Of a stretch of DNA of 49,108 nucleotides, positions 2,188-49,108 are shown one piece after another. Source of the DNA: a virus. Every line of letters begins with the position of its first letter. The stretch's first letter is position 1. The stretch is from the IMG/VR virus record IMGVR_UViG_3300030001_000017, positions 1 to 49,108 of that record; one strand, written 5' to 3'. The translations under genes were made by a program, and so were the position numbers. The notes below the pieces were generated by a model. That model had not been told where the DNA came from. It was given only the letters and a program-made list of their open reading frames with translations, and made no database searches.

Positions 2188-2217
2188 GATATTTGTTTTT
2201 TTATTAATTAATACTAC

Positions 2218-2351: not shown

Positions 2352-2380
2352 TCAGCATAATTATAAAAATATATATAAAA

Positions 2381-3075: not shown

Positions 3076-3088
3076 AGATAGAAAAATT

Positions 3089-3118: not shown

Positions 3119-3125
3119 AAAACAA

Positions 3126-3156
3126 TTTGTTTCTAATTAAAAAAAGTATAATTTTG
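3126..3156 (+). promoter_or_regulatory. Host-type (Bacteroides) promoter P2
   Basis: TTTG (3126-3129), a 19-bp spacer, then TAATTTTG (3149-3156), matching the Bacteroides consensus in full. It lies directly after the terminator and 44 bp before the start at 3201. It probably drives the packaging operon through terminase and portal. Confidence 0.75.
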
Positions 3157-3200
3157 GTTCATCAATTAGAAATAATTGAAAATGTTATTATAAACTAAAT

Positions 3201-6980: not shown

Positions 6981-9568
6981 TGGCAATTATTAGGTACACC
7001 AAGGATGCTACAATAAGGTATGCATACTTAAACATCTTCCCTGATCAGTTTAAGACTGATAAAGAAAAACAAGAGGAAGGTTGGATAAAGAATACTATGG
7101 ATTACTTTGCCAATAAAGCTTATGCAGAGTATATCAAGAACAGAGAAACTTTCGTTAGAAATTATGATTTAATGAAAGGTATTCTTAGACCAGAAGATTT
7201 CTACCAGGTTCCTGAAGTTAAGAGCTTTGCTGAAATGCTTACAGCAGATGTGGAACTTCCTGCCTATGTAAAACACTATCCTATTATAACTACACCAGTA
7301 AATGAGTTAGTGGGAGAAATTACTAAACGTCCTGATACTTATAGAATTAAAGCCTTTGATGATGATAGTCAGGCAGAAGAACTACAATTTAAAACAGATC
7401 TTCTTCAGGAGTATGTAATTAATCAAGCCAAGAAAGAAATATATGAGAAGGCTGAAATGGAAGGAACTGAAATATCTGATAAAGATATTCAGGATCTTAC
7501 TATGGAGAAGGTTAAAGAACAATTGGATAGTTACACATCTGTTGCTGAGAGGTGGGGTAATCATGTTCTTACCTGTCAGAAAGCTGATTTTAATATAAAA
7601 GAAAAGAGTGAAGATACCTTCAGAGATATATGTATAAGTGCCAGGGAATTCTATCATGTCTATGAAGATAATTCTAAAGTAGGATATAATGTAGAAGTAG
7701 CTAATCCTAAGAATACTTGGTTTCTAACAACCCCTGATAGAAAATGGATATCTGATCCAACAGGTAGAGCACAAGGAGCTTATGCTGCAGGAACAGTTCA
7801 GGTAATGGAACTATCAGAGATTATAGAGAATGTTCCTGATTTGACTAAGGAGGAAATAGATCACTTACGAAGTTCATTACAGGATTATGGATTAATAAAT
7901 GTTAGAGAATCTAATCTGGGTAATCCTAATGCTATTCCAGGAACAGATTCAGTAATGTATGATACCTATGATCCTCTTGTTCTTCAAACAAGAATGATTA
8001 TAGAGAGTGAGATGAAAGAAAATAGTGATAGTCTTAAAGACTTTCTGGGTCTTACTTCTAATGTATCTTCCTTTGGATATAAGTATGTGATTGTTAAGTC
8101 TTACTGGATATCCAAGAAACAAATAGCTAAAATAACTTATACAGATGAAGTTGGTAATCTACAATCTTTACTTGTGGATGAGAATTATAAATCAGGTACT
8201 ATCCCTACACAAATTTCTTTAGAGAAAGGATGGATTAATCAATGGTATCAAGGTACTAAGATTGGTCCAGATATCTATCATGTCAAACCTTTTAATCTTC
8301 TAAATTATTGTCCTATTATAGGAACTACATTTGAAATAAAGAATACAGAGGCTAAGAGTCTTGTAGATATGATGAAACCTTTCCAGGTAATATATAATAT
8401 CTGCATGAACCAGTTATATAGACTTCTTGAGAAAGAAATTGGTAATGTAGCCTCTGTAAATATTCGTAGAGTTCCTAAATTAAAAGATGGAGATGATCAG
8501 GATGCTATTGATATATGGGAAATGGAAGCCAAGGAAAGAGGTATTATATTTGATGATGATAGTCCTGAAAATACCAAAGGAGGTGTTAGTAATCAAACAG
8601 TTGCTAAACAAATAGATCTTACTCGTACAAATGAAATTCAAAGTAGATATAACCTGGCTGTTCAAATGAAGAATGAATGTTGGGAACTGGTTGGTATGTC
8701 TAAACAAAGAATGGGATCTGTATCTCCAAGTGAATCTGCAACAGGAACTAATGCTGCTATTCAGCAGTCTTATTCTCAGACAGAACCTTTATTTGTTGCT
8801 CATGAATATGTAATGGGACAATTATATCAAGCTATTATAGATGCTGCATTATATATTGCCAGTAACAAACCAGAATCTACACTATCCTATATTACATCAG
8901 AAGGAGAAGCTGCTTTCGTAAAAGTGAATGGTTCTGATTTAAAATTCAGGGATTTAAAAGTATTTGCTACTAATCGTCCTGAAGATACTCAGATGTTTAA
9001 TGAACTTAGAGCATTGTCTCAGGCTGTCTTACAGAATGGTGGTACACTATATGATATAGTAGAACTTTATTCTACTAAGAGTATGAGACAACTTAAGAGA
9101 ACCTTTAAGGAAATGAGAGATAAACAGCAAGCAATGCTAGATCAGAAGATGCAACAGGATCAGCAGAAACTTGATCAAGAACAGAAAATAGCTCAAGCTC
9201 AGTTAGAACAGGCTCAAGCTCAACATGATCAGGATGTAGCTAATGAAAACTATCAAAATGATTTGGATAGACTTAATAAAAAAGAGATAGCTCTTATAGG
9301 TGCTGAATCTAAAGGTAGTCTAACAGATAATGATAGTAACGGAATTCCTGATGTATTAGAGATTAGCAAGTTAGATCATGAGAGAAATAAAGCTATGAAA
9401 GACTATAATGTAAAAATGGCAGAGATTCAAAGTAAGAGAGCAGATAGTCTACAGAAACTTCAGATAGAAAGAGAGAAATTACAAGTAGATAGAGAGAATC
9501 AGAAAAATGATCTTGCTATTGCTAAGGAAAATGCTAAAAACAGAGCAACAAAATCAAAATCTAAATGA
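6980..9568 (+). CDS. Portal protein
   Basis: 862 aa, placed directly after TerL as expected for the dodecameric portal that forms the DNA entry vertex. The first 700 residues are the likely portal core (clip, stem, wing and crown cannot be drawn by eye). Residues about 700-862 are a long Gln/Lys/Glu-rich coiled coil (QKMQQDQQKLDQEQKIAQAQ), probably a barrel or internal extension. In the coiled coil a loop D783-N-D785-S-N787-G788-I-P-D791 fits the calcium-binding pattern DxDxNGxxD. Identity rests on length, position and the crAss-like gene order rather than a short motif. The start shares a base with the TerL stop. Confidence 0.85.
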   Translation: MAIIRYTKDATIRYAYLNIFPDQFKTDKEKQEEGWIKNTMDYFANKAYAEYIKNRETFVRNYDLMKGILRPEDFYQVPEVKSFAEMLTADVELPAYVKHYPIITTPVNELVGEITKRPDTYRIKAFDDDSQAEELQFKTDLLQEYVINQAKKEIYEKAEMEGTEISDKDIQDLTMEKVKEQLDSYTSVAERWGNHVLTCQKADFNIKEKSEDTFRDICISAREFYHVYEDNSKVGYNVEVANPKNTWFLTTPDRKWISDPTGRAQGAYAAGTVQVMELSEIIENVPDLTKEEIDHLRSSLQDYGLINVRESNLGNPNAIPGTDSVMYDTYDPLVLQTRMIIESEMKENSDSLKDFLGLTSNVSSFGYKYVIVKSYWISKKQIAKITYTDEVGNLQSLLVDENYKSGTIPTQISLEKGWINQWYQGTKIGPDIYHVKPFNLLNYCPIIGTTFEIKNTEAKSLVDMMKPFQVIYNICMNQLYRLLEKEIGNVASVNIRRVPKLKDGDDQDAIDIWEMEAKERGIIFDDDSPENTKGGVSNQTVAKQIDLTRTNEIQSRYNLAVQMKNECWELVGMSKQRMGSVSPSESATGTNAAIQQSYSQTEPLFVAHEYVMGQLYQAIIDAALYIASNKPESTLSYITSEGEAAFVKVNGSDLKFRDLKVFATNRPEDTQMFNELRALSQAVLQNGGTLYDIVELYSTKSMRQLKRTFKEMRDKQQAMLDQKMQQDQQKLDQEQKIAQAQLEQAQAQHDQDVANENYQNDLDRLNKKEIALIGAESKGSLTDNDSNGIPDVLEISKLDHERNKAMKDYNVKMAEIQSKRADSLQKLQIEREKLQVDRENQKNDLAIAKENAKNRATKSKSK

Positions 9569-10999: not shown

Positions 11000-12556
11000 A
11001 TGGCACAACTTCAAACACTCCCAGGAGCTTCTGGGTTTATGTATGCTAGAGTAGCTTCTATGGACAAACGTGCTGTAGGGAAGCTAACTGACTCGAATCA
11101 CTTAGAATCATTCCATTCTAGTGAACCTGCAGACTATGATAAAAAAATCATAAGTCTCTATACTCAAAGTTCATTGTACAGTAATGACTTTCTGGACATG
11201 ATCAATAAGAGTACTCCTTACTATATTGATAATAATAGTGATTCTTGGAAATGGGAAATTTCTGTTCCTTACAAGTTCCCTAAGATTATTGATATTCCTA
11301 CAACGACTTCTAACTTAAGTAAGCCTGGTATTGATGGACAGGAATTTCAACTTATTTTGGATACTAATGAATTCTCCAAGAACTCTATTGTATCTGTTGG
11401 TTCTCGTCAGTATGGTCCTCGCTTTTATGTTATTAAAGATCCACAGCCTTGGAGTGTAGGCTATCTTTATAGCTTCACACTTGTTACTGATAATCCTATC
11501 ATAGATTTCGTTAGTTCTACCTTCCTTAAAGTTGGTTTGGAACTTGAATTGATTGATGGTGCTATTGGTGAATTTGATCAGGATTTGTTAGGTCTTCCTC
11601 GTTTGGGTGAAAAGATCCAGATGTTTGAAAGTCTTGGTTCTGGTTATGGATTTGAACACAAAATTACAGAATGGGCTGATCAGCGAATGATGGTTGATGC
11701 TGCAGGTCGTCCTCTGGATATTTTGGTATATGCTCCTCAGAAACGTAATACATCACCTCTTACTCGTAATGATGTTAAGTGGGAACCATTTATTGAATTC
11801 TGGATGCGTAAATCAATGTTGGAACTAAAGGTTAACAAGATGATCTGGGGTAAACCAGGAACAGTTAAGACCAATGGTTCTAGACAAGAAGTAAAACGTA
11901 CCTCTGCAGGTGTTTATCATCGTATGAGAAACAATGGTAATCTTGTTCAATACAATCGTGGTGAATTCTCTGCAAATCTTATTCGTTCGGTATTTGGAGA
12001 TCTTTTCTACAGGCGTGTAGATGTGGCTGACCGTCATGTCAAAATGTATACCAATGAATCAGGGTTTGATGTATTCCAACAGGCTCTTAAGAATGATGCT
12101 CTTAATTCAGGTTTGACCTTTATGGCAGATTCTGGTAATCGCTTCATGCAGGGTGAAGGTCAGCATATCACATATAACTTTGCATTTGATGCAATGGTTA
12201 CACGTGAAACAGGTAGGGTGGAATTGATTCATCTTAAGGAACTTGATCTTCCTCAGTCTAATCTTGAGTTTGGACAGAATAAAAAATCTACTCCTGTCTT
12301 TATGGTATTTGATGTTAGTCCAATGAGTGATGGTTCTATGGTTAACAACATGCGTGAGGTCAGAATGAAAGGTGCTCCTTCTATGACTTGGGGTTATATT
12401 GATGGTACTGCTCACCACTTAGGTTTTGCTAAATCTCAGGGTATGAGTTCTGCTAACAAGTTCCCAGGTTATGAAATCTGGATGAAAGACCGTTGTGATT
12501 TGTTCATTGAAGATTTGTCTCGTACAGTCTTAATTGAAGAGATTCCTCAGTTCTAG
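11000..12556 (+). CDS. Major capsid protein (HK97-like fold)
   Basis: 518 aa, beginning MAQLQTLPGASGFMYARVAS. Its size, place after the scaffold, and stretches such as YGFEHKITEWADQRMMVDAA and GVYHRMRNNGNLVQYNRGEF agree with crAss-like capsid proteins, which adopt the HK97 fold. There are no Cys-rich or membrane parts. Codon use differs from most neighbours: Arg is mostly CGT instead of AGA, as expected of the most expressed late gene. It ends with a TAG stop, followed by a stable hairpin at 12569. The A-rich leader (ATAATAATAAA) has no Shine-Dalgarno. Confidence 0.92.
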   Translation: MAQLQTLPGASGFMYARVASMDKRAVGKLTDSNHLESFHSSEPADYDKKIISLYTQSSLYSNDFLDMINKSTPYYIDNNSDSWKWEISVPYKFPKIIDIPTTTSNLSKPGIDGQEFQLILDTNEFSKNSIVSVGSRQYGPRFYVIKDPQPWSVGYLYSFTLVTDNPIIDFVSSTFLKVGLELELIDGAIGEFDQDLLGLPRLGEKIQMFESLGSGYGFEHKITEWADQRMMVDAAGRPLDILVYAPQKRNTSPLTRNDVKWEPFIEFWMRKSMLELKVNKMIWGKPGTVKTNGSRQEVKRTSAGVYHRMRNNGNLVQYNRGEFSANLIRSVFGDLFYRRVDVADRHVKMYTNESGFDVFQQALKNDALNSGLTFMADSGNRFMQGEGQHITYNFAFDAMVTRETGRVELIHLKELDLPQSNLEFGQNKKSTPVFMVFDVSPMSDGSMVNNMREVRMKGAPSMTWGYIDGTAHHLGFAKSQGMSSANKFPGYEIWMKDRCDLFIEDLSRTVLIEEIPQF

Positions 12557-26339: not shown

Positions 26340-26341
26340 TC

Positions 26342-28459: not shown

Positions 28460-28470
28460 ATTTAAAAGCT

Positions 28471-34622: not shown

Positions 34623-37190
34623 ATGGCTAATTGGACAGATAATAGACCCCCAGTGTTTAATCCCTACGTACAGCAATTGCCTGTTGAGGCAATGACTCAA
34701 GTTGGTGTGGAAAAACAGAAACGCTATGATGAGGGTGTTCAGAAAATTCAGACTGAAGTTGATAATATTGCAGGACTTGACATCATAAGAGATGTGGATA
34801 AGAACTATCTGCAATCTAAACTAAATCAGTTAGGTACTAATCTTAAATCAGTTACTGCAGCAGATTTTTCTAACTTCCAATTAGTTAACTCTGTAGGAGG
34901 AATGGCTAATCAGATAGCAAAGGATAGAAATATTCTAAATGCTGTTAGCTCAACTGCTAGATTTAGAAAAGAACAAGCCTTTGGTGAAACTCTAAAGAAA
35001 GAAGGTAAATCCTCAGTTAATAGAGAATATGATTTCAATAAGTCTGTTAATGACTGGTTGAATAATACTGATCTAAATGCTTCTTTTAATGGACAATATA
35101 AAGAGCATATTGATGTCAATAAAAAAGTGCTTGAGATAATTGGAAAAATTAATCCAAACGCTAAACAAGAGGATCTTGTTAATGCTGTAAGATCTGATGG
35201 TACAATTAATTATAAACAGATGGCTGATGTAATGCAACGTAGAGGTATTACAGAAGTTAGTGAAGGTCAGATTAAAACAGCAGTTAATTCAATGTTGGAT
35301 GCTAATGACATGGATGAGTTATATAGCCAGGGAAGATATGCATATAAAGATTATACGCCTGCAGCATTACAAGCTGAGAGTACCAGAACGTATGAACTTG
35401 GTAAAAGAAGTTATCAAAGTAAGCTTGAAGAGTTACAGAGACAACTCCTTGTAACTACAGATATTACACAACAGCATGACATTAATGATACAATTGAATA
35501 TTACAAAACCTTATTAGGAGACTCAAAAAATAATATCCCTAGTCTTCTTGAAAAGACTCATAATTCTATACTAGAAAATATAATGACTAATCCTGATGAA
35601 GCAAGATCTTCCTTATATACAAGAAATTGGTTGGATGAAATTGCTAATGGATTTGCTCATAGAGAAATTAAAGATGAGGTACTTGCTTCTCCATATAAGG
35701 AAAATGAATGGAAGCGTCTTGCTTATAATTTAGATTTATTACAAGAAAGTCATTTACAATCATATAGAAATGCTCAATTAGAAATTGACAAAGAGAGATT
35801 AGGAATTGATAGAGATAAACTTGCACTTGAAAGAGAAAAACTTTCTCCTGGTATACCTTATTACAAAAGAACTGGTGATGCATCTACACAAGAGCAAGAA
35901 TCTTTAAAAAACTTTGCTAATTATAATAATGAATTAAAGACAAGGAATGAGACTATTCTTAATGAGTATGCTGATAGTCGATCAAGTATGGATACTAAGG
36001 TTAAACCTTCTGATATTCTTAGAAATATAGAATTGTATAAGAGTAACAAATATACTCCTAAAACAAAAGATGAGGAAGTTGATTTTAATGAATACATTAA
36101 AAATAGTAATCTTCTGGCTACACAATCCAGAATTTTAGCAAAAAAAACTGATGAAGCTTACAGAGAAGTAACAGGAGGTATTGCTCAAAGAGATCTATTG
36201 TCTTCTCAGTTAAAAGGTAAAGCAGATATTGATATTGTTAAAGATGGTATTAATTATCATTTTACTCCTAAAGAAATCTATGATTATATCTCTAAAGAAG
36301 AAAAATATACAAAAAGTTACAACATGTATGGAGGTGGATATTCAATGTCACCTGGATCAAAGCTCTCAGATAAAGAAAGAGTACTAGCAAATGAAATTGA
36401 AGGAAGATATAGTGGTTCTACTAAAGCTATTAATACACAGTTAAATGAGTATTTAAACAGTTATTCCTCTATTGCGAAACAGACAAGAGATATTGATCTT
36501 CAAGTAACAAAACGTGTTTCTGAAAAAATGAAAGACATCACAGGTATATTTGCTACAGAGCAAGCTGCTGTTCATTTTAAAGATACTGACGAAGAAAAGA
36601 ACTTCATTAGAGATCTAACTACTATAGTACAGGCAGATATGGGAGCTAAATCAGGAGCATTAGGATATGATACTGAAAAATCTTTAGATTTTCTAACTAA
36701 AACTGGAGGCACAGATGTTGAAGCACAGCATGTTAGACAAGGTGATAAGAATTTCATCCAACTTACTAATAAGAAAAGTAAGAAAACAGAACTTATTCCT
36801 GTTACTCCAGAATTTGTTTTAAGAAATAAAAATCTAGGAGAAAAGTATTTAAATAAGAACTTAGATTTTGCAATGGTGTTATTGACAAATAACGGATCTA
36901 CAAATATTTTTAAAGACTATGATAATGCATATTATAACTCTGGATTATTTGGAGGATATGATGTAAAAGGAAAGAGAACAGTTAAAATGCCAATAGTAGC
37001 TGATTTAGAGAGAGGTAGGAGTGGTGCATTCTATCCTGTTCTTAAAAGAAAAACAAAAGACGGAAAGATAGAAGTGTTACCTTACCCACATGCAACAACT
37101 AAAGAAGAGTTTGAAGCTTGGCTTCCTACTCTTACTGATGAAAAAATAGAGATGTTATTTAATGATAATAAAAAGAATACAAACCAGTAA
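34623..37190 (+). CDS. Internal/cargo virion protein upstream of the RNA polymerase gene (855 aa)
   Basis: 855 aa. It starts MANWTDNRPPVFNPYVQQLP and continues with EAMTQVGVEKQKRYDEGVQK, a pattern I associate with a conserved crAss-like virion protein encoded next to the polymerase. It is almost wholly helical, with a long charged coiled coil at about 380-415 (EIDKERLGIDRDKLALEREK) and other helices. A Gly/Tyr-rich loop (YNMYGGGYSMSPGSK) lies near 563-577. No membrane segment. It starts after P4 and ends 14 bp before the giant gene, so both are one transcript. It may act as a tape-measure-like or cargo protein packed with the polymerase. Confidence 0.7.
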   Translation: MANWTDNRPPVFNPYVQQLPVEAMTQVGVEKQKRYDEGVQKIQTEVDNIAGLDIIRDVDKNYLQSKLNQLGTNLKSVTAADFSNFQLVNSVGGMANQIAKDRNILNAVSSTARFRKEQAFGETLKKEGKSSVNREYDFNKSVNDWLNNTDLNASFNGQYKEHIDVNKKVLEIIGKINPNAKQEDLVNAVRSDGTINYKQMADVMQRRGITEVSEGQIKTAVNSMLDANDMDELYSQGRYAYKDYTPAALQAESTRTYELGKRSYQSKLEELQRQLLVTTDITQQHDINDTIEYYKTLLGDSKNNIPSLLEKTHNSILENIMTNPDEARSSLYTRNWLDEIANGFAHREIKDEVLASPYKENEWKRLAYNLDLLQESHLQSYRNAQLEIDKERLGIDRDKLALEREKLSPGIPYYKRTGDASTQEQESLKNFANYNNELKTRNETILNEYADSRSSMDTKVKPSDILRNIELYKSNKYTPKTKDEEVDFNEYIKNSNLLATQSRILAKKTDEAYREVTGGIAQRDLLSSQLKGKADIDIVKDGINYHFTPKEIYDYISKEEKYTKSYNMYGGGYSMSPGSKLSDKERVLANEIEGRYSGSTKAINTQLNEYLNSYSSIAKQTRDIDLQVTKRVSEKMKDITGIFATEQAAVHFKDTDEEKNFIRDLTTIVQADMGAKSGALGYDTEKSLDFLTKTGGTDVEAQHVRQGDKNFIQLTNKKSKKTELIPVTPEFVLRNKNLGEKYLNKNLDFAMVLLTNNGSTNIFKDYDNAYYNSGLFGGYDVKGKRTVKMPIVADLERGRSGAFYPVLKRKTKDGKIEVLPYPHATTKEEFEAWLPTLTDEKIEMLFNDNKKNTNQ

Positions 37191-37204: not shown

Positions 37205-40200
37205 ATGCCTATAAATGATTTAAGTCCTTTGACTGAAAACATACTACCAACAAGTAGACCTCAATCTGTAGGTAACTCAATTCCTAATCCATATATGGAA
37301 GGTAGTGGTAATGGTGATAGTGGAAGTAAACGTCCTGATTACTTACCTCCTCTTGCTTCAGGAAAGGATGAGATGCCTATTACAGCAACCTCTGGACAGT
37401 TGCATGATGCAAGAAAGTTTTCTGTCTTTGATCCTACAAAGACAGAGAATGAGTTTGCTTATGGACAAGGATTTGTTTCTAAGATGGTTAGTGGTGTTGG
37501 TAAGGGATTATTACTTACAGGTACTACATTTCTACAGACTACTGCAGGATTAATAAATGGTTTATATCAATGGAATAAAACAGGGAAAGCATCTTCTTTC
37601 TATGATAATCCTCTTAATAAATGGGTAGATGATGTAAATGCAGAAGCTGAGAACAGATTACCTAATCTTTACACAAATATTGAGAAAGATGCTAATTGGT
37701 ATTCTCCTAAATATTTATTAACAGGTAATTTCTTATGGGATGGTATTGTAAAGAATCTTGGATTCTCTGCAGGTGCTGCATTGTCAGGAATGGCATTTGC
37801 AGGAGCTTTAAGAGCTCTTCCTCTTACATCTAAGTTATTCTCTATTGGTAAAGGAGCTGAAGCTCTTGCAGCCACAGAAGAAGGAGTATCAGCATCTACA
37901 GCAGCAGGTAATGCTGCAGAAACTTATGGAAAGATCAAAGAGCAATCTGATAAATTCTTAGGATCATTTAAATTACTAAATCCTGGTGGTAGAGCTTTAA
38001 TAGCAGGTTTATCTACTTCTGGAGAAGCTAGTTTTGAGTCATATCAGAATCTTAATCAATTCAGGAATGATGAAATAAAGAAATATCAAGATACACATGA
38101 TGGAGAGAAACCTACTGGAGAGGATCTTAAGAAGATTAATGATAATGCAGAACATGTTGGAAATGTGTCCTATCTGTCTAATGTGGCTCTTCTTAGTGTT
38201 ACTAATTATATACAGTTTCCTAAAATATTAGGATCTTCTTATAAAGCTGAGAAGGGAATGATTAATTCCTTAACCAAAGAAACAGGAGATATAATTGGAA
38301 CAGAAGGAAAATATCTTGTAAAGCCTGCAGGAAATAAGATTCTCTCAACTCTAAATAAGATTAGACCCTATACATTCTCTACTTCAGAAGGATTTGAAGA
38401 GGGTGCACAGTATGTAATTCAGGAAGGTACTCAGAACTACTATGATAAAAAGTATAATAATACTCCAACTGATTTTCTAACCAGTCTTTTAGAAGGAGTT
38501 AAAAAGACTGTTGGTACTAATGAAGGTATGAAGAATATCTTAATTGGTGGATTATCAGGATCTATAATGATGGGTAGAGGAAGGTTCAGAGAAAATAGTG
38601 AGAAAGATAGAAATACTCAGGAAGCTGTTACAGCATTCAATAAAACTAAATTTTCTGATTTTACTCAGGAAACATTAGATGCTGTTAATAGAGGAACAAC
38701 TCTTCAGGAAGAGAGAGAAGCTGCTCTAAAGAGTGGTGATATACTAAATAGTAAAGATAAAGAAGCTGATTATATAATCAACTATCTTACACCACGTATT
38801 AAATATGGGAGGTTTGATTTAATTAAATCAGATATATCTGATTATAAACAACTTGCAAGCACTGATGAAGGTTTTGCTCAATTACAATCTGAAGGTAAAG
38901 CCTTAACAACAGATACTAAGGAAGCTTATATTCAGAGATTATCTGCATTAGAAGCTACTGCTGAGAATGTAAAATCATTATATCAATCTCTTAATCTTCG
39001 ATATGGTGCACAAATAGATGAAAAAGGTAAACCTATCTACTCTCCTGCAGTTATGGACAAGATGGTTTATGCAGCATCTAAAGTAGCTGACTATGATAAA
39101 CGAATTCCAGAATTAACTAATACATTAATACAAAGTAATATTGATGTTAATGCTGTAGTTAAAGATGTACTATTGGGTAAATCAGACAGTTTTAATGAAG
39201 CTATGGATTCTATCAGCAAGATGGATATCTTAGATGAAGAAAAAACTTCTCTTAGTGAAGCTTTGGAAGATATAAGTGAACTTAGTCTTCGTAGAAATAA
39301 ATTTCTAAAAGAATATACTGAGATAAAGAACAATCCTAAAAAATATCAGGAACAAAAAGCAGAAGATATCCAACCTCCTGTTGGTGAAGAGAATAGGATA
39401 ATTGCTATTAAAACTAAGACAGGAGATAAGGAATTAACTATTGGTAAGGAGTACTTTATAGGTAAGGGATTTGACTATGATAAAGATGGTCTGGAGACTC
39501 CTGTTACTATTTCTAAACTTACTATTCTTAGTGAGAATGAGGATGGTACAATCAAAGTAAAAGGAAATAATGGTAAAGTAATGGATATATCTAAGGATCA
39601 ATTACTTGACTATAAAGTTACACCTGCTGAACAATTAAAAGCTAATAAGACTGCTAATTATTTCTTTAATCATAGGAATGAGTTGTTTGAGATTAATTTG
39701 GGTAAGAAATATGGTGGAAAGAAAACTGGTAGAATTGAATTCAAAGAAGGCAAACTCTTTATTGTATATAAAGGAGTTAATGGCAAACTTATTCACAAAG
39801 AGATAAATAATAGTTTCTTTGTTCCTCAAAAGGAATATAATGAACCAAGAATCAGAATTACAGGTAAAATTGAAACTGCAGAACAGAAAGTAGCCAGGGA
39901 AGAATTCACTTCAGCAAAAGAATTAGAGGCACAGAAACAAACTGCTTCTCAGAATAGAGATACACGTATTGAAATTCTGACACAGTTGTTTGATGATATC
40001 TCTACTAAGCAGGAAGATACCAATAAGTTACTGACTCAGAAGAAATCTGAATTAACAAATATTAAAGAGGAATTATCTAAACTTGAGGAGAATATCCTTA
40101 ATACTCAGAATGATGTAGATAAGAGATTTAAAAAAGTAACTTTCAGAGCTACTACCAGAAAAGCATTAGCTACTGCTTCTCGTTTGTCCAGAATGCAAGA

Positions 40201-43200
40201 TCAGTTAGAAAAAGAGATAAAAGATCTTGAGACTCAGAGAGAAGAGTTAGATATTGATTTGTCTTATATTTCTGATATGGCTCAGAATATTGATGAGCTT
40301 CCTACAGATAGTAAGGAGTTTCTTAATGAGCTGAAATCTCATAAAGCATTATTGGAAGATATGCTTCTTAATACAGAAATTCAAATTGAGGAGACTAACA
40401 ACATTATTAGCAAGGTAAAGGCAGCTTTAGATTCAGCTATGGATTTCTTATCAGATGTGATAGGTAAGTTTCAGCAGAAGTTTCCTAAAGTTCCGCTTGC
40501 TCTTGGTAGTGAATGGATTGAGTTTCTAAAAAATAATCCTAACTTTCTTAAGCGTAAACCTAACTATAAGGAAGAATTACAACAGCTTGATGATTTAGTA
40601 GCTCAAGTTGAGGATATGGATATTATTCCTGGGGAGCGTACTATAAAAGAATTAAATGAGAAACTTGCAGAATTACAGGAAGCCTTATCTCCACTAGAAA
40701 GAGAATTAAAAGCAAGTAATGTTATATTGGATAGGTTTAGGGAAATTGCTAAAAAATCCAGGGAAGTAAAAGCTGAAGAGAAAGCTATGTCTGTAAAGGA
40801 TGAGTTTTTAAAAAAGGCTCTTGGTACAGATAAGAGTGGTATCCAGAACAGAGAATTTGATAAGGATTATGAGCCTGAGGCTAAGAAGCCTACAGAGTTC
40901 ATATGGAGAAGTACTATCACAACAGGAGATAAACCTCATGCCATTAGATCTAATAAATTTGGAGCTAATCTGAATTCATTTCCTAATAGAGATAAAATAC
41001 GTGGGGTATATATAACTTTTAAAAATGAAGATCAGATACTACCAGGATTAATTGATCATTTAAGGACAGATGAAAATGGTAATGTAGACAACTCTATAAA
41101 TAGAGAGGATGTCATTGTATTAGTAATGACTGATGAGGATGGTAATCTGATTGATGAAAATGGTAAACTTGTACAGAATAATGCTGACAAATTAAATACA
41201 GCTATATATCAAGTATTTCCAGAAGCTAAATTAGCTTGGAGTGAAAAGTATGGTAATGCATCAATGTTTAGGAAAGATACTCCTCAAGATGTAGTGGACT
41301 CTGTTAAGAAACAGTATGCTGATTGGAGAAAAGATATTTTAGAGAACACAACTGATTTAAGTAATAGTCATACTATTGATGCCTCTTTTGGATTTCCTGA
41401 GTATGAAACTGAACTGGATGAAAATCAAGTACCACAGAGGATTTATTCTACTAAGACATCTGTACAAGAAGCAGGTTTGGTTACTGAAGATGAATTAGAA
41501 GCTTCTCCAGTAATTACTATTCCTACAACCAATAGTATTGTTGGTAAGGGCACTGTTTCCTTTACTAATGCTATTGGTAAAGTATTTCTTGAATTAAAGA
41601 ATGGTCTGATACCACTACAGAATAGAAAACATACTAGTGAAGAGGCAGAGTTAATATATCAGTCTATCTATCACTTAGCTAAGAATATGCTTAAAGGTGA
41701 ACTTAAGTCTGATGCTTCTGAGAACTTATTTAATTATCTTCGATCAGTAGTCTATTGGGGAATTCCTACAGATCAACAAGGTAATAGAAAAGAGACTAAA
41801 GGATATAATAGTATCTTCTGGGAGAAAGATCCTGTATCTGGAAAGTTCATGTTATCAATGTCAGGAAAAGGAATGAACTTTGTATTCACTCCTTCTGCAC
41901 TGGAACAATATAAAGCAGATATAATTGCTATGTTAGAGGGGATGTATAATAACATTAACTCCTCTATGATTAAAGGTAATAATGCTATTAATGAGAAATA
42001 TCATGAACCATTATCTATAAATGCTGATGGTACTTTCAATACAAGAGAATGGAATAACTACCAGACTTATTTGTTATCAAGTACAACTCCTGATGGTAAA
42101 CCACGTAAAAACATTCCTCTTACTACATTAATGAAACCTCTTGCTAATAAGGAAGATGTAAATAGAAAAGGAATATATTTTTATACTACTGATACAGCAG
42201 ATGATATTGTTCTTCCTACTAAAAAACCTTTAGCAGCATCTAAAATGCTTCCAGGTAAATTACAGGAAGCTCTACAGAAAACACAAAAGTTTGTATTAGG
42301 TAGAAATAATTTAAATATATTTACTACAGATGCAGGAAAACAATTAAAGTTTATAGTTAGTGAGAAAGTTAATGCTAATAACTTTATGCAGGAGATTAGT
42401 ATTCTTCAAGGCGGTGATCTTGTAGAATTAATGGATATTATTAAAAAAGCAGGATTAGATCCTGCAAAGGTTCTTAAAAGACGTATATTTAAAGCACTTG
42501 AGCCTCAATTAAATGATACAAATACTGAAGAGAAAGAAGATATCTTTAGAGTTCCTGATGATGAGGATGATACTAAAATACCTACACAGAAAGATAATAG
42601 AAAAACATCTAATGAAGATGATGAAGAGATGGAAGTCTTTCATGTTCCAGATGATATAGATGAGGATATTAAGAAGGCTTTAAATCGTGTGTCTAATGAT
42701 TCTGATTTAGCAGCAACTCGTCTTGTTTTAAAACAGATGTTAGATGATTATAAAGAAGAGGACTGGACTAAAATAGAACAATGGTTAAGAAATAATTTTC
42801 CTAACTTTCCTTTCTATAGGGTAAAGAATGTAATCCAGGTTACTAATGGAAGACAAGCTTGGGGTATGTTCAAACAGGCTGCTTTGTATGTATATCAACA
42901 TGCAGAATCAGGTACATCATATCATGAGGTCTTTCATGCAGTATGGAGGATGTTCGTAGGTCCAGATGAACAATCTGCTATTGAAGATGAATTCACTTCC
43001 AGAAAAGGTAGTTTTATTGATAGAGCTACACAGAAGACAATAAAATACTCAGATGCTAATGCTAAAGAAATAGATGAGAAATTAGCAGAAGAATTTAGAA
43101 ATTATATTCAGGAAGGTAAAATCCCTGGTAAACCAGAGAAAGGAAGACCATTTATTCTTAAAATGTTTATAGACTTGGTAAAGTTTATTAAAACCTTCTT

Positions 43201-46200
43201 TGTTGGAAATGAAGGTATTAGTAATACAGAAAATCTATTTAAGCATATAAATGAGGGATACTATAAAAAAGTAATTCCTTACACAGCAAGTTTATCCTTG
43301 GCTAATAAAGGTATAATAAATATTAATAATGCAATTGCTACTACAGAAGACAATCTCAGTGTAGTATCTATCACAGATAAACAACGTAGTGATATTATTC
43401 AGGAAATGACTTATCAAACTCTCAAGGAATTGATAGAGTCTGATAAGAGTTTATTTACTGTTCCTAATTTAAAGAAATCAGAATTATATAGTAGACTGAA
43501 ATCCAAGTTACTAGATACTCTTAGTAGAGATATAAAGAATTCTAAGAAACTAATTGCTAAAGGAGAATTTACAGAGAATCAATTAGCTCCTTTAATGTAT
43601 GAACGTCTTTCATTAATGCAAAATGTTGCTACACAATGGGATGCTATAGTTGCTAAGCATCAGGAGTATCTTAGGGGATATTCTATTGAGTTTGATGATA
43701 ATGATAGTCTTCAGATAAATGATGAGGATAAGATCAAAAATAGTGATTTTGTAGATGCTACTAAAATAGATAGCTTTAAGAAAGCTAATAGTGCTATTAA
43801 ACTACTCCTGGCAACTTTACCAAAGGTAGATGGAAATAATAGATTAATACCATCTTCTATTGGTGGAGCACAATTACTCCCTATAAGTCAGACCTATATT
43901 AGTCTGATGAATAGGTTATATAACTCTAAGAGTATTGAAGATATGATGTCCAGACTTAAGGATATGGCTACTAATGATGTAAATTACAGAACATTATACA
44001 AACGTCTTACTAAATCAGACTGGAAAACTAAAGGAATAGATATTAGTAAGATCAATACTACTTATGGTGCACAACTCCTTGGTTCTTTCTGGAAGACATT
44101 CAAGAAACAAAATCCAGATGTAAAGAATGTATTTATATTTGAGAATGGTGAGATAGTTATAGGAGATAGTAATTTATCGAGTGTAGCTAGTCAACTTAGA
44201 AATGAATATATTAATGACATTATCCTAACAGCAAAGAAGGATAATAGTTATTTTAAATATGATGAAAAGGAAAAAGTATTCAGAGGAGATGCTGTTGCTA
44301 TCAAAAATGTAAAACTAGATACATTAACATCCTACTCAGAATTTCTTAATAAACTTGGTATTGTATTTACTGTACCTCAGATCCAGAAATTAGGTTCTCA
44401 TCTAAAAGATTTCAAGGAGACTGTTTCAGGTATACGAGCTAGTATTGCTGCAAATGAAAAAATTGCAACATTTTCTGGTAAGGTTTTAAATATTAATGGT
44501 CGTCTGCTTGAACTTGGTATTGCTAAAGCAGTTATTGATAATCCTGAATTTGATAGTACTTTCTTTAATGTTACTGGTGAACGTACTCAATCATTTATTG
44601 GTGTTAATCCTGCTGATGCCTTATATAACTTTCTCTCTTCAATTGAGAAATTTGATGATGCTAATGTTCTTGACAGCGAATATAGATATCTTAAAACAGA
44701 TGCTTTCGCAAAAGGTTCCAATATTCTACAAAGAATGTTTACTTCTGAAGGTACACGTAAACATGGTTCTGAGGATCTTATGAAAGTAGGGTATGTTAGT
44801 GGTACTATTGATGAGAAGAAAGGTAAACAGAAAGCATCTGCCAGATTAAACTATAAAGAAAGACTTATTCAGGAGATCAATCTTAATCTAAAAGGATGGT
44901 ATCTTAATTTAGTTCCTGCTGATGCAACTATGGAGTGGATGCTTAATACTGGGAATGCTATATCAGTAGCCTCTATATCTAAAGGACTTTCTGATGTAAA
45001 TGCTATCTTTAAGAATTACTTCATCTCCGAGATGGATCTTGTTAAGGATAATAGGAAGATCAATAGCCATAGAGATGCTAAGGAAGCAAAAGAAATGAGG
45101 TTCTTTAAATCTATTCTTGGAGAAGAACTACATAATAAGATAGTTAAAGATAAAAGAGACTCTGAAGAAATATATGCTGATTATGAATCTAAGATAAACT
45201 CTGCCCTGGAGAAATATATTAATAATGAAACTTCTAAGTTTCAGAAGAATTTAACTACTTGGGGAGTATTAACTGAGGATGATCTTGGTCATACCTTGGA
45301 GAATATTAATCTTCCAGAGAATATGTCTATGGAAGAATTAGTTAGACAATTGAAAGCTCTTACAATTAATTTTATGATTTCTAATATTGAAATGCATAAA
45401 CTACTGTATGCAGATCCTTATCAATACTATCAGGAATTAAAACGTATTAAGAACTTCAATTCACCTAGGCAGACTCTTATTAATAACTCTCCTCAGATGA
45501 ATGCAGTATTTAATTCTGTTTGGAATGAGAATTATAAAAAAGGAGATATTGGATATACTAACTTTCGTCAAGATTACTTTAGATCAGCTACTCATAAAGA
45601 TACCTTTGGGGTAATTGATTTACTTGGATATACAGATTTTGAAGAGACGGATGGTGCAGGTATTATTGGAATGAGAGCATATCGCCAGTTTAGAATTAGA
45701 AGTGGAGATTGGAACGATAATGAAGAAAGTCAATATAGGTATGATATAGCCTGGGAGAAGAGAGATAAAGATTTTTCATTGTCTGCCAGTGAGGTAGCAT
45801 TATTAGAAAAAGGAAATCCTGCTATTCAAAGTGCATATGTTAATATTAAACCTATTGTAGCAGGTAATAGACTGAATAGTAAGGGAAATGCAAATGATAT
45901 CAATGATGTCTTATTGGATAAGTTTGCTCTATATCCTCTATCATATCGTATTATGAAAGAGATAAATCCTAATGCAAATGCTATAAAGCTTTATGATAAA
46001 ATGCAGAAGGAAGATATTGATTATATGGTATTTGAGAAAAGTAGAGTAGTAGGTGCAAGAGATCCTCATGATACATATAATGCTGATGGTTCTTTTAATA
46101 CTAAGCCATATTCCGGGGAGAATGTGATCAATGTACCTTTTAGTATCATGAGTGTACAATCTGAAGTACCATCAAAAGAGAAAGCTCTTACTACACGTGG

Positions 46201-49108
46201 ATCCCAGATTACAAAACTTGTAACTATGGACTTTATGGAAGCAGGTGTTCCACTTGATTTTGATAAAGAAAGTAGTTTCTTAAATAGATATAAGGCTTGG
46301 TATAAACTATCTGAAGATCAGAAATTAGCAACTTCTCCTTTATATAAAGATATAATGAATAATCAGGATCTCCTTGAGTTAATGATGGAGCATGGTTATC
46401 AAACTCTTCTTAATAGGTTGGGTATCAAGGAAAGTAATGGTAAATTTAGTATTGAAGATTTATCCGATGCTGTTTCTACTCTTAGGGAGGAAGTATTAAA
46501 AAGAGAAGTAAATGACAACATTAGTGATGCTCTTACAGGTTTCTTGGAGGGTCAGTCTATTCTTGAGGCTACTCCTGCGTATCAGCAGATAAGGAATATT
46601 CTTTATTCAATTGCTGATAAAGAGATTATATCCCCTAAAATTAGTGGAGGTATGAAAGTACAAATTCCTTCTACAATGATGGAATCTGTTAGAGCAGAAG
46701 AAACTACTATTAATGGTAAGAGAGGATTTACCTCTGACTTCCTAAACTTCTATAAAGATGAAGATGGAAAGAGAGTATGTGAAATAATGATAGGTAGATG
46801 GTTTAAGAGTAGTATGTCTGATGCTGAGTTACTTGACTATTTGAATAACTCAGAAGAAGGTAAATCTATTCTATCTGGTTTAGGATTTCGTATTCCTACC
46901 CAGAAACAGAACTCAATCGATAATTTTGTTATTAAACAATTCCTTCCTAAAGAGTTTGGTGATTCTGTTGTTATACCTGCAGCACTTGTACAGAAAGCAG
47001 GATCTGACTTTGACATTGATAAATTATCAGTCTACTTAAAAAACATCTTCAAAGATGTCAATGGAGACATTAGATTAGTTTCATACAAAGGATCTGAGAA
47101 AGCTACTAAGGATTATTATAGTGAAGTATTCTCGGATAAAATTGAGAAACAAATAGAAAACCTTGAGAAACAGGATGATAAGAATGACATGATAATGGAT
47201 GTCATGAGTAAGCTAGAAACTCTTCCAGATATCACTATATCTTTAGCTAAAGCTGTATTGGGTAAAGAGGAATATCATTTCTATGCTAATAACTTAGATC
47301 TACTTTATGATATACTTGAAAGAGCTGATGAACAGGAGATTTCTGGTACTGAGTATATTCAGGGCAGATTAAATGAGTCTGGTGAGAAGAAAGCAGAATT
47401 ATTTACAAAACTATTACTTGAGGATTTAAGAAAAGGGTACATAGATAGGATGTATAAAAAATCCTTAGAGAATGCTTATATTCAATCCTCTCAGAATCTC
47501 GTATCTCATAAGCTTAATTTTGACAAGCTTATTAAACCTAACTCTGCAGACCAAATGAAGAAATTATCAGCAGAGATTGCAAAGAAGACTCTAGGTTCTA
47601 CTTTTGATTATAATGATGTAGGTAATATGCTAGATAGGGGATTTATGTCCAGACTTAGACATGCTTTTGTATCTGGTAAGTATGCTATTGGTATAGCCGC
47701 TGTAAATCAGACTAATCATTCCCTGAATCAAAGACAACCTATCTACATTGATAAAAATAGATTCAATAAGCTTAGTGAGGAAGATAAGTACTGGTTAGTA
47801 GATGGTGAAGTAAGATTTGATAAATTTAATAGAATTGAAGTTAATGGTAAGATAGTACCTACATTATCTATGATTAAGAATGTAGATGGTCAGTATATAT
47901 CTGATATCATCTCTCAGTTTATTGATGGATATGTGGATATTGCTAAAGGTCCTTGGATTATGGAATTAGGAGCTACACCTAATGTTGCTTCAACCTTTAT
48001 GTTCCTGGCTAAATTAGGAGTTCCTATTGATACTGTATCTTATTTTATGAATCAACCTATTATTCGTGATTATCTATCTAAGATTAGTAATGCAGGGTAC
48101 TCATGGTTATTCATTGATAATTTCGTTGAGGAGTTAAAACAAGATGCTAAATGGTCTGTTGATGATCGTAAGGAAGCTGATTTAGAAACAGTTGGATTTA
48201 AAGGGATGGGTTTAAATCAAATTCCTAGTAAATCTACATTAAAAAATAATATTGGGAAAGAGGATTTTAATGCACAGGAGAGATTAGAACAACGCTTTAT
48301 TCTTCAGGAATTTCTAAAGTATGCTAAGATGGCTGAGCATATGTTCTTGGTTACACAGGGATCTAATTTTGATACTGCTAACTTCAACGATCCATATCTT
48401 GTATTTAAGAAATTTAAACAGTTAGAGAAGGCTCAGAATACAATCATTAGTGATGTGAATACTCTTTTGAATAACTCTTTCGTAGGACAGCTTAGTGAGA
48501 CTATTAAGAAAACAAGAAATGCTTTGGCTACTATTCTTAAATCAGATCAGGATAATGTTAGAAGAGTTATTCAGAAAGTATTGGAGCCTTATGTCAATAT
48601 GAACAATAATGACTTTGTTAAACTTGCTCAGAAGGCTGTTAATGATTTATTTGACTGGGCTGTTCAAACAGGAGATGAGAAGTTAAATGCTGATATTCGT
48701 AATGTATTGATTACTAATGGTGGTGTGGGTGCAGAAGTTATGGAGTTTGTAAATAGTATTAAAGTTAATTCTTCTCATCCTCTGCATGATAATCATGTCA
48801 TTAATATTATACAGGCAATACCATCACCAAGGGCAGAACAAGGAGGAGTTAATAATCTGAAAGTAAAAGGTACAGACAATAAGGTTTATGACCAGAATAA
48901 TATTATATATGGGTTTAGAGAGATAAGAGAGTATTTAAAAGACAAAAATAGTAAGTTATATGATAGGATTAAATTACTTGCTGTATTACAGAGTGGTTTG
49001 TCTAATTCAGCTATTTCCTTTACCTCACTTCTACCATATGAAGATTTTGCAGAATTATATAATAAAACTTTGTCTAGTTTAGAGAAACTTCCTAATTTAG
49101 AGGAGTTT
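37205..49108 (+). CDS. Giant polyvalent virion RNA polymerase protein (partial, >3968 aa)
   Basis: One frame of 3968 codons, open at the right edge. Layout: a polar N-terminus; Gly/Ala-rich hydrophobic helices at about 97-125 and 175-205 (NLGFSAGAALSGMAFAGAL), likely for membrane or channel contact; a coiled coil at about 918-1180; an acidic linker at 1769-1822 with a repeated F[RH]VPDD motif; and a zincin-like HExxH (H1907-EVF-H1911) with downstream acidic helix KLAEEFRNYI. Farther on, SDFDIDKL has D3268, D3270 and D3272, corresponding to the DxDxD metal-binding motif of crAss-like/YonO-type single-chain RNA polymerases. GIAAVNQTNHSLNQ (about 3493-3506) and SAISFTSLLPYEDF near the edge also fit that group. 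It is expected to be packaged, injected with DNA and to transcribe early genes. It is much longer than the 2180-aa polymerase of phage phi14:2, so other virion functions are fused in. Confidence 0.85.
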   Translation, partial: MPINDLSPLTENILPTSRPQSVGNSIPNPYMEGSGNGDSGSKRPDYLPPLASGKDEMPITATSGQLHDARKFSVFDPTKTENEFAYGQGFVSKMVSGVGKGLLLTGTTFLQTTAGLINGLYQWNKTGKASSFYDNPLNKWVDDVNAEAENRLPNLYTNIEKDANWYSPKYLLTGNFLWDGIVKNLGFSAGAALSGMAFAGALRALPLTSKLFSIGKGAEALAATEEGVSASTAAGNAAETYGKIKEQSDKFLGSFKLLNPGGRALIAGLSTSGEASFESYQNLNQFRNDEIKKYQDTHDGEKPTGEDLKKINDNAEHVGNVSYLSNVALLSVTNYIQFPKILGSSYKAEKGMINSLTKETGDIIGTEGKYLVKPAGNKILSTLNKIRPYTFSTSEGFEEGAQYVIQEGTQNYYDKKYNNTPTDFLTSLLEGVKKTVGTNEGMKNILIGGLSGSIMMGRGRFRENSEKDRNTQEAVTAFNKTKFSDFTQETLDAVNRGTTLQEEREAALKSGDILNSKDKEADYIINYLTPRIKYGRFDLIKSDISDYKQLASTDEGFAQLQSEGKALTTDTKEAYIQRLSALEATAENVKSLYQSLNLRYGAQIDEKGKPIYSPAVMDKMVYAASKVADYDKRIPELTNTLIQSNIDVNAVVKDVLLGKSDSFNEAMDSISKMDILDEEKTSLSEALEDISELSLRRNKFLKEYTEIKNNPKKYQEQKAEDIQPPVGEENRIIAIKTKTGDKELTIGKEYFIGKGFDYDKDGLETPVTISKLTILSENEDGTIKVKGNNGKVMDISKDQLLDYKVTPAEQLKANKTANYFFNHRNELFEINLGKKYGGKKTGRIEFKEGKLFIVYKGVNGKLIHKEINNSFFVPQKEYNEPRIRITGKIETAEQKVAREEFTSAKELEAQKQTASQNRDTRIEILTQLFDDISTKQEDTNKLLTQKKSELTNIKEELSKLEENILNTQNDVDKRFKKVTFRATTRKALATASRLSRMQDQLEKEIKDLETQREELDIDLSYISDMAQNIDELPTDSKEFLNELKSHKALLEDMLLNTEIQIEETNNIISKVKAALDSAMDFLSDVIGKFQQKFPKVPLALGSEWIEFLKNNPNFLKRKPNYKEELQQLDDLVAQVEDMDIIPGERTIKELNEKLAELQEALSPLERELKASNVILDRFREIAKKSREVKAEEKAMSVKDEFLKKALGTDKSGIQNREFDKDYEPEAKKPTEFIWRSTITTGDKPHAIRSNKFGANLNSFPNRDKIRGVYITFKNEDQILPGLIDHLRTDENGNVDNSINREDVIVLVMTDEDGNLIDENGKLVQNNADKLNTAIYQVFPEAKLAWSEKYGNASMFRKDTPQDVVDSVKKQYADWRKDILENTTDLSNSHTIDASFGFPEYETELDENQVPQRIYSTKTSVQEAGLVTEDELEASPVITIPTTNSIVGKGTVSFTNAIGKVFLELKNGLIPLQNRKHTSEEAELIYQSIYHLAKNMLKGELKSDASENLFNYLRSVVYWGIPTDQQGNRKETKGYNSIFWEKDPVSGKFMLSMSGKGMNFVFTPSALEQYKADIIAMLEGMYNNINSSMIKGNNAINEKYHEPLSINADGTFNTREWNNYQTYLLSSTTPDGKPRKNIPLTTLMKPLANKEDVNRKGIYFYTTDTADDIVLPTKKPLAASKMLPGKLQEALQKTQKFVLGRNNLNIFTTDAGKQLKFIVSEKVNANNFMQEISILQGGDLVELMDIIKKAGLDPAKVLKRRIFKALEPQLNDTNTEEKEDIFRVPDDEDDTKIPTQKDNRKTSNEDDEEMEVFHVPDDIDEDIKKALNRVSNDSDLAATRLVLKQMLDDYKEEDWTKIEQWLRNNFPNFPFYRVKNVIQVTNGRQAWGMFKQAALYVYQHAESGTSYHEVFHAVWRMFVGPDEQSAIEDEFTSRKGSFIDRATQKTIKYSDANAKEIDEKLAEEFRNYIQEGKIPGKPEKGRPFILKMFIDLVKFIKTFFVGNEGISNTENLFKHINEGYYKKVIPYTASLSLANKGIININNAIATTEDNLSVVSITDKQRSDIIQEMTYQTLKELIESDKSLFTVPNLKKSELYSRLKSKLLDTLSRDIKNSKKLIAKGEFTENQLAPLMYERLSLMQNVATQWDAIVAKHQEYLRGYSIEFDDNDSLQINDEDKIKNSDFVDATKIDSFKKANSAIKLLLATLPKVDGNNRLIPSSIGGAQLLPISQTYISLMNRLYNSKSIEDMMSRLKDMATNDVNYRTLYKRLTKSDWKTKGIDISKINTTYGAQLLGSFWKTFKKQNPDVKNVFIFENGEIVIGDSNLSSVASQLRNEYINDIILTAKKDNSYFKYDEKEKVFRGDAVAIKNVKLDTLTSYSEFLNKLGIVFTVPQIQKLGSHLKDFKETVSGIRASIAANEKIATFSGKVLNINGRLLELGIAKAVIDNPEFDSTFFNVTGERTQSFIGVNPADALYNFLSSIEKFDDANVLDSEYRYLKTDAFAKGSNILQRMFTSEGTRKHGSEDLMKVGYVSGTIDEKKGKQKASARLNYKERLIQEINLNLKGWYLNLVPADATMEWMLNTGNAISVASISKGLSDVNAIFKNYFISEMDLVKDNRKINSHRDAKEAKEMRFFKSILGEELHNKIVKDKRDSEEIYADYESKINSALEKYINNETSKFQKNLTTWGVLTEDDLGHTLENINLPENMSMEELVRQLKALTINFMISNIEMHKLLYADPYQYYQELKRIKNFNSPRQTLINNSPQMNAVFNSVWNENYKKGDIGYTNFRQDYFRSATHKDTFGVIDLLGYTDFEETDGAGIIGMRAYRQFRIRSGDWNDNEESQYRYDIAWEKRDKDFSLSASEVALLEKGNPAIQSAYVNIKPIVAGNRLNSKGNANDINDVLLDKFALYPLSYRIMKEINPNANAIKLYDKMQKEDIDYMVFEKSRVVGARDPHDTYNADGSFNTKPYSGENVINVPFSIMSVQSEVPSKEKALTTRGSQITKLVTMDFMEAGVPLDFDKESSFLNRYKAWYKLSEDQKLATSPLYKDIMNNQDLLELMMEHGYQTLLNRLGIKESNGKFSIEDLSDAVSTLREEVLKREVNDNISDALTGFLEGQSILEATPAYQQIRNILYSIADKEIISPKISGGMKVQIPSTMMESVRAEETTINGKRGFTSDFLNFYKDEDGKRVCEIMIGRWFKSSMSDAELLDYLNNSEEGKSILSGLGFRIPTQKQNSIDNFVIKQFLPKEFGDSVVIPAALVQKAGSDFDIDKLSVYLKNIFKDVNGDIRLVSYKGSEKATKDYYSEVFSDKIEKQIENLEKQDDKNDMIMDVMSKLETLPDITISLAKAVLGKEEYHFYANNLDLLYDILERADEQEISGTEYIQGRLNESGEKKAELFTKLLLEDLRKGYIDRMYKKSLENAYIQSSQNLVSHKLNFDKLIKPNSADQMKKLSAEIAKKTLGSTFDYNDVGNMLDRGFMSRLRHAFVSGKYAIGIAAVNQTNHSLNQRQPIYIDKNRFNKLSEEDKYWLVDGEVRFDKFNRIEVNGKIVPTLSMIKNVDGQYISDIISQFIDGYVDIAKGPWIMELGATPNVASTFMFLAKLGVPIDTVSYFMNQPIIRDYLSKISNAGYSWLFIDNFVEELKQDAKWSVDDRKEADLETVGFKGMGLNQIPSKSTLKNNIGKEDFNAQERLEQRFILQEFLKYAKMAEHMFLVTQGSNFDTANFNDPYLVFKKFKQLEKAQNTIISDVNTLLNNSFVGQLSETIKKTRNALATILKSDQDNVRRVIQKVLEPYVNMNNNDFVKLAQKAVNDLFDWAVQTGDEKLNADIRNVLITNGGVGAEVMEFVNSIKVNSSHPLHDNHVINIIQAIPSPRAEQGGVNNLKVKGTDNKVYDQNNIIYGFREIREYLKDKNSKLYDRIKLLAVLQSGLSNSAISFTSLLPYEDFAELYNKTLSSLEKLPNLEEF

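Follow-up and report, generated by a model that had tools for sequence, protein, structure and literature searches.

The window analyzed here, that is, the whole 49,108-base stretch of the IMG/VR virus record IMGVR_UViG_3300030001_000017, comes from an uncultured crassvirus, as judged from its capsid, tail ring, and terminase genes, and its 3′ end is filled by a single giant open reading frame (37205..49108, + strand). This frame stays open from position 37205 to the contig end over 3968 codons, a run without stops for which the base composition gives a chance of ~10^-154. These are codons 1 to 3968 of a 4228-codon gene, the remainder of which lies beyond the contig end. A second assembly, L009 (IMGVR_UViG_3300030047_000014; 120,747 bases), shows 1 mismatch against the window in 13,504 overlapping bases, has no frameshift, and contains the complete gene (L009:1601-14287; 4228 amino acids [aa]). 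Contig L007 differs from L009 by 2 mismatches and carries the identical frame; both represent the window's own phage. From the N terminus onward, and always on the + strand, the frame includes an N-module (residues ~77 to 735; 37433..39409), a predicted coiled coil (residues 897 to 1092; 39893..40480), a middle module conserved among relatives (residues 1201 to 1700; 40805..42304), a zincin-like domain (residues ~1846 to 2040; 42740..43324), and an RNA polymerase part (residues ~2050 to 3968, extending to 4228 in L009; 43352..49108). An earlier reading made from the letters alone (hereafter, the sequence-only reading) had described an uninterrupted frame of at least 3968 codons with a coiled coil, a protease-like site, and a DFDID motif at residue 3268, and all of these were recovered. 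Given the composition of the protein, chance alone would yield the catalytic DFDID (residues 3268 to 3272; 47006..47020, +) 0.004 times and an HExxH motif, found here as HEVFH (residues 1907 to 1911; 42923..42937, +), 0.024 times. The heptad periodicity of the coiled coil, a poorly conserved region, reached 9.31 and 8.74, above the 95% level of shuffled sequences (8.08).

Single-sequence searches with the 3968-aa product, which is too divergent for this approach, gave no match at all in Pfam, PHROGs, or the PDB (phmmer), and profiles were required. A profile of residues 2700 to 3890 built from 16 relatives retrieved a single PDB entry at an E value of ≤1, namely 6VR4, the virion RNA polymerase of phage phi14:2 (E 2e-24), with the DFDID of the window aligned to the motif of that enzyme. 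Likewise, a structural model of these residues (mean predicted local distance difference test [pLDDT] score, 59.8) had 6VR4 as its only Foldseek match at E ≤0.001 (E 4.7e-12), and VIA-align superposed both over 536 residues (Z 21.1; root mean square deviation, 5.2), the runner-up having a Z of 4.0. The structural alignment covers model residues 306 to 1083 and 6VR4 residues 1120 to 1818, a range in which, at this mean pLDDT, the barrels are not delimited individually. Additionally, a tblastn search with residues 2001 to 3968 gave matches in 43 of 50,697 phage records (crass-like wherever so named), the best being the "Catalytic RNA polymerase subunit" of phi14:2 (g066; E 2e-20). Thus, the polymerase assignment of the sequence-only reading withstood the fold comparison set for residues 2500 to 3900, here made with residues 2700 to 3890, and residues ~2050 to 4228 are identified, by sequence and by model, as a crass-like virion RNA polymerase of the phi14:2 gp66 family. 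Its extent could be gauged from the position of the catalytic motif, which starts at residue 1361 in phi14:2 g066 and at residue 1483 in crAss001 gp50, so that ~1200 to 1400 residues upstream of it can be counted as part of the enzyme. The sequence-only reading was correct in giving the phi14:2 enzyme about 2180 residues (g066 has 2180 aa, 1360 of which precede its motif), and it overcounted in leaving some 3000 residues of the giant protein to be explained. The extra part before the polymerase amounts to ~2000 residues and is, on sequence grounds, a fused neighbor of the g067/gp47 type. As a separate observation, a 1426-codon frame in L127 (CP070801.1), the 1.05-Mb chromosome of a Candidatus Aenigmatarchaeota metagenome-assembled genome, matches the polymerase profile (independent E value, 5e-17), which may point to a provirus, to a binning error, or to a polymerase of a different kind.

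The N-module is homologous to the N-terminal part of crAss001 gp47, phi14:2 g067, phi17:2 gp039, and a 1552-aa protein of Leptolyngbya phage Lbo-JY46. In a small database of named proteins, the N-terminal part of gp47 matched residues 88 to 722 (E 3e-31), its C-terminal HExxH-containing part matched residues 1854 to 2003 (E 4e-7), and g067 matched residues 185 to 716 (E 5e-8). Whole-genome searches with the N-module profile recovered crAss001 at E 1e-40 and phi14:2 at E 8e-16. In PHROGs, 14 of the 16 members used matched phrog_32390, a family with an unassigned function and 1957 positions, the same length as the phi17:2 frame; a weak match to a "DNA transfer protein" family, seen in a single one of the 16 members at E 0.026, was disregarded. 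The middle-module profile found no convincing relative among named crassvirus proteins (best E 0.04).

It is important to consider that the N-module and the polymerase do not always occur together. Among nine whole records searched with the polymerase profile, six gave a match (the window's phage, the phage of contig L035, phi14:2, cr4_1, crAss001, and LMMB). The three records without one, Lbo-JY46, phi17:2, and csAssE-Sib, where the polymerase may be too diverged for the profile, all contain the N-module (E 5e-46, 2e-55, and 8e-39, respectively), and the N-module protein of phi17:2 carries a structural annotation. The result for phi17:2, which is named in the Epsilon group, agrees with the published absence of the DxDxD transcription block from this group (PMC7886860). 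Since the N-module occurs in three phages with no detected polymerase, it probably has, as far as sequence distribution tells, a role of its own in the virion, which may be in entry rather than in transcription. The name "RNA-polymerase subunit" has blurred two questions, the role of the N-module and that of transcription.

To describe how widely the parts are joined, two IMG/VR scans were combined into 89 distinct contigs, 2 of them from the window's own phage; one scan consisted of the best 80 of at least 455 confirmed relatives, which biases the sample toward close relatives and makes its rows nonindependent. The gene start is in view in 83 contigs, the other 6 being cut 5′ of the gene. A single frame was present in 81 of these 83, and a profile check located the N-module, the zincin-like domain, and the polymerase in every one; the count comprises 80 frames plus L106, whose GGDFDID escaped the motif pattern. 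The complete fused genes (n = 77) encode 3755 to 5004 aa, with a median of 4266. In L035, the gene is truly split into an N-module protein of 2026 aa and a polymerase of 2149 aa, overlapping at a TAATG stop-start, and the zincin-like domain was found in neither half, even by a permissive search. In L088, the frame is broken inside the polymerase (L088:2368-14833; 41-base frame overlap), its near-copy L089 has one frame, and the break is either a sequencing error or real.

Deposited crassviruses show both arrangements. The parts are unfused in three Steigviridae (phi14:2, crAss001, and cr111_1): in phi14:2, g067 directly neighbors g066, with the order matching that of the window fusion, and in crAss001, gp47 and gp50 lie apart on opposite strands. 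In another member of this family, cr108_1, the parts are joined in gp054, and the polymerase continues in a second frame, gp053. Four Suoliviridae have the zincin-like domain and the polymerase in one frame: cr4_1 (gp26, 4491 aa), cr60_1 (gp27, 4494 aa), cr118_1 (gp14, 4946 aa), and cr10_1 (gp32, 4460 aa), the frames of cr4_1 and cr60_1 containing 38 and 55 internal TAG codons, respectively; a fifth member of this family, cr131_1, is left out of the count. HExxH is kept in all five of these proteins, cr108_1 included. Three Intestiviridae (LMMB, jaberico, and cr271_1) have an HExxH-motif protein separate from the polymerase, and the window's zincin-like profile had no match at the HExxH sites of the LMMB and jaberico proteins. 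In the genome of the isolate Chitinophaga sp. YR573, a frame of 5485 codons unites the N-module, an HExxE site, the polymerase, and a third cargo protein (residues 3897 to 5483; E 2e-299). In L009, the next long gene after the giant matches cr108_1 gp052 and crAss001 gp49. The same three genes are found separate, with two fused, or all fused, states that fit a single co-delivered complex.

Further observations concern the bacterial genomes in which these genes were found. The YR573 element (NZ_FOJF01000001.1, ~3.70 to 3.77 Mb; L119 and L141-L145) lies inside a 4.83-Mb contig and includes a crassvirus capsid gene and the giant triple fusion; on its right side, a Phage_integrase-domain gene (L144:1337-3250) stands beside a tRNA-Gln (L144:3364-3435), and host-type genes follow farther out on both flanks. 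The element has the appearance of an integrated provirus, whereas a review, in which YR573 is already among the listed crass-like finds, describes crass-like phages as apparently strictly lytic (PMC10136315). The isolate genome of Spirosoma oryzae DSM 28354 (L137) also has crassvirus capsid matches, together with a 3367-codon frame that includes the polymerase motif region and, on the same contig, a separate 1815-codon frame matched by the N-module.

The zincin-like domain, homologous to the C-terminal part of crAss001 gp47, has in the window the form of a metal site (H1907, E1908, H1911, and the downstream E1958), and the pair D1957-E1958 (43073..43078, +) would supply E1958 as the candidate third metal ligand. 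A Pfam search of this stretch yielded no credible family. The site was compared in 78 rows chosen by the pattern [YF]HE[VAIL][FG]x, by which residue 1906, H1907, and E1908 are invariant by choice and residues 1911, 1957, and 1958 are free to vary; L035, L039, L066, and L088, in which the pattern is absent, and L106 are outside this set. E1958 is invariant (78/78). Residue 1911 is His in 25 rows and Glu in 53, with nothing else present (codons CAT/CAC or GAA/GAG), and its state changes 12 times on a quick tree built from other columns, mostly of the polymerase, at least 10 of these changes being forced by well-supported branches; long branches were flagged on this tree, and some rows are near-copies.

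Residue 1957 follows this change. In the rows with H1911, it is acidic in 21 of 25 (Lys in 3 and Asn in 1), and in those with E1911, it is Lys or Arg in 53 of 53. When 10 independent pairs are compared, the change at 1957 accompanies that at 1911 in an average of 9.7 and never goes in the opposite sense (sign test, p 0.002, for a column chosen for its signal beforehand). Among 274 column-and-class tests in the domain, only 1957 stands out besides 1911 itself (9.72; acidic test, 8.72), the next value being 4.6, and in 1665 control tests the best was 5.2 and none reached 7, with the caveat that the control columns are those used to build the tree and may follow it more closely. Rows outside the set agree, as L066 has HEIFH with Glu at 1957 and L106 has HEIFE with Lys. 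Read from profile alignments, position 1957 is Glu in five deposited H-form proteins (cr108_1, cr4_1, cr118_1, cr10_1, and cr60_1) and Lys in the E-form Chitinophaga protein; crAss001 gp47 does not align cleanly at this position and was not counted. In the model, residues 1907 to 1917 and 1953 to 1970 lie in two helices, the first with a pLDDT of <60 (model mean, 60.6). The coupled swap can be read as a metal site exchanged for a salt bridge, its direction and chemistry being presumed. The domain at the join would be a metallopeptidase or, in the majority of the relatives examined, a form in which a probable charge pair replaces one metal ligand, so that catalysis is probably optional. The HExxE variant is unmentioned in the titles and abstract openings of the papers listed in searches for zincin or HExxH with crass-like phages, which does not prove its absence from the literature.

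Considering these results together, we find it probable that one polypeptide of ~4228 residues unites a cargo protein of the gp47/g067 type with a virion RNA polymerase of the gp50/gp66 type, predicted to have two barrels, and that this polypeptide is packaged and ejected, its N-terminal part presumably acting in envelope passage and its polymerase transcribing early genes. The homologies, the order of the parts, the intact frame, and the conservation of the fusion are established at the sequence level. Under this explanation, the giant protein would share the head with the DNA in uncut form and would exit via the tail with or ahead of it, N terminus first. Envelope passage would then fall to the N-terminal part, whereas the polymerase at the C terminus would refold in the cytoplasm and transcribe early genes independently of the host enzyme. 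The fusion would ensure one-to-one delivery and an N-to-C order. No new function has to be invoked for the extended N terminus of this giant phage polymerase.

Several results weigh against this explanation. Residues 2050 to 2700 match other polymerases weakly in the profile search, and the model of residues 1520 to 2699 had no PDB fold match at E ≤0.001 and no PDB sequence match; the zincin fold and the exact junction are thus predicted from sequence. The N-module is undetected by sequence in cr4_1, cr60_1, and cr10_1 and weak in cr118_1, so in Suoliviridae the same architecture means the zincin-like domain plus the polymerase only. The hydropathy profile of the window protein revealed no membrane segment above shuffled sequences, its best 19-residue value being 1.53 (at residue 1983) for the whole protein and 1.28 for the N-terminal third. 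The usual threshold for a 19-residue segment is 1.6. Shuffled versions averaged a maximum of 1.86 and 15 peaks, compared with 9 peaks in the real sequence, and a segment of ≥1.6 within residues 61 to 520 occurred in 5 of 75 fused proteins; the hydrophobic helices of the sequence-only reading were not upheld. Finally, packaging, injection, and cleavage are argued by analogy with relatives, and for packaging and transcription these are phi14:2 and crAss001.

The alternative that survives best, which we nevertheless regard as unlikely, is that the giant protein is a precursor cut by the zincin-like domain at the junction, so that the virion, like that of phi14:2, would contain the gp47-like protein and the polymerase as two chains. 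The HExxH with its acidic candidate third ligand is indeed located at the join, and the only naturally split relative (L035) lacks the domain, just as phi14:2 g067 lacks HExxH. However, HExxE replaces HExxH in 53 of 78 relatives, which nonetheless stay fused; this argues against the site having to cleave its own chain. In crAss001, moreover, HEAFH is retained even though gp47 and gp50 are encoded apart on opposite strands. A far less credible alternative is a tape-measure type of protein with a fused polymerase, on the model of Thermus phage P23-45, where gp96 is a tape measure carrying an RNA polymerase and a metallopeptidase (PMC10770324). The window has crassvirus capsid and tail ring proteins, the order of the parts is reversed, the N-module is gp47-like, and Pfam and PHROGs give no tape-measure match, although this is not proof. 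An assembly or frameshift artifact joining two neighboring genes, which might be suspected from their separation in phi14:2, crAss001, and cr111_1 and from the frames that differ between near-copies at L088, is for practical purposes refuted by the identical frame in L009 and L007 and by the predominance of three-part single frames among the contigs with the start in view.

With the uncut, co-delivered fusion kept as the preferred explanation, we put forward tentatively, and with less than even confidence, that the zincin-like domain is a switchable element. It would alternate between a metal site and a charge pair, and hence between a metallopeptidase and a dead but structurally kept hinge, with envelope passage or release depending on proteolysis in some phages and on conformational opening in others; the gp47-type N-module would be an ejection protein that predates the attached polymerase or is independent of it. 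A comparison of H-state with E-state members offers a simple way to learn if the protease-like site works during infection. The new elements in the present analysis are the N-module in three phages with no detected polymerase, the coupled site swap, and the split relative lacking the zincin-like domain.

The remaining genes place the phage in its group. The contig is assigned to the crassviruses by a major capsid protein (11000..12556, +; PF23898, E 1e-24), with tail ring proteins matching Pfam families PF25702 (18714-19478, +) and PF24228 (19963-20907, +) and, from PHROGs, a terminase large subunit (phrog_6681) and a P22-type portal (phrog_6547) at 4947..9568 (+). Judged by terminase, Leptolyngbya phage Lbo-JY46 (PP438436.1; L115) is the nearest relative among deposited phages, at 38.6% identity; it is also the best by capsid, and its recorded host is a cyanobacterium. 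Directly upstream of the giant gene, an 855-aa protein (34623..37190, +) is related by sequence match and position to an 845-aa neighbor in Lbo-JY46 and is by position a candidate cargo or ejection protein. Adjoining its N-module protein, Lbo-JY46 has a 2748-aa protein with HELAH and HEFMH and with no DFDID-type motif. In the same comparison, the 1809-aa (20910-26339) and 287-aa (28471-29334) proteins of the window match consecutive parts of one 1654-aa Lbo-JY46 protein, and a 705-aa gene sits between them (region 20910-29334), which may represent an insertion into a structural gene or, alternatively, domains encoded apart. Downstream, the short stretch that separates the giant gene from the cargo gene after it (L009:14288-15010) contains a frame that resembles by eye a GIY-YIG homing endonuclease.

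Giant virion polymerases are known from other phages, and the window protein can be compared with them. The N4-type virion RNA polymerases have a T7-like fold. In the N4-like phage DEV, the giant polymerase gp71 is described as an ejection protein, and the same is suggested as a possibility for crass-like phages (PMC10925440); gp71 is set beside the window protein by this description, not by sequence comparison. P23-45 gp96, a 5002-residue tape measure with RNA polymerase, metallopeptidase, and transmembrane domains (PMC10770324), is alike in combining a virion RNA polymerase with a giant virion protein that includes a metallopeptidase and unlike in its N-terminal polymerase and tape-measure partner. 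Crass-like phages, in turn, are short-tailed podoviruses (PMC10136315). Of the functions that the sequence-only reading supposed to be fused with the polymerase, a cargo-type virion partner and a protease-like site were retained, and the tape-measure function, for which there was neither a match nor a long tail, was not.

Within crass-like phages, Yutin et al. describe a transcription block of several large multidomain proteins, one with DxDxD (PMC7886860). Mass spectrometry detected gp47, gp49, and gp50 in crAss001 virions, with the capsid cargo zone as their likely place, and partly unfolded passage through the tail is expected for these cargo proteins by the authors of that study (PMC10172136). 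The window protein shares with phi14:2 the polymerase family (gp66; 6VR4), the DFDID, and the gene order g067-g066-g065, but phi14:2 has two genes in place of one, and its g067 has no HExxH segment. crAss001 gp47 shares the N-module and the zincin-like domain and gp50 the polymerase, as separate genes. Among p-crAss-type phages, a protein annotated as zincin/RNA polymerase associated adjoins the polymerase in LMMB, where the genes are separate and the annotation has the polymerase joined to a further subunit, and a protein with a ZnMc_tr note adjoins it as a separate gene in "Rudgehvirus jaberico." Chitinophaga sp. YR573 has the N-module, the site in its HExxE form, and the polymerase in one frame, with the third cargo protein fused too. 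The giant proteins of the gut Suoliviridae and of cr108_1 are arranged as in the window, with the zincin-like domain followed by the polymerase in one frame. A literature search on gene fusion in crass-like phages returned no match. Nevertheless, the fusion itself is of a known kind, since it is also present in deposited gut crassviruses, and giant RNA polymerases, whose genes reach ~6000 aa, are a published hallmark of the group (PMC10136315).

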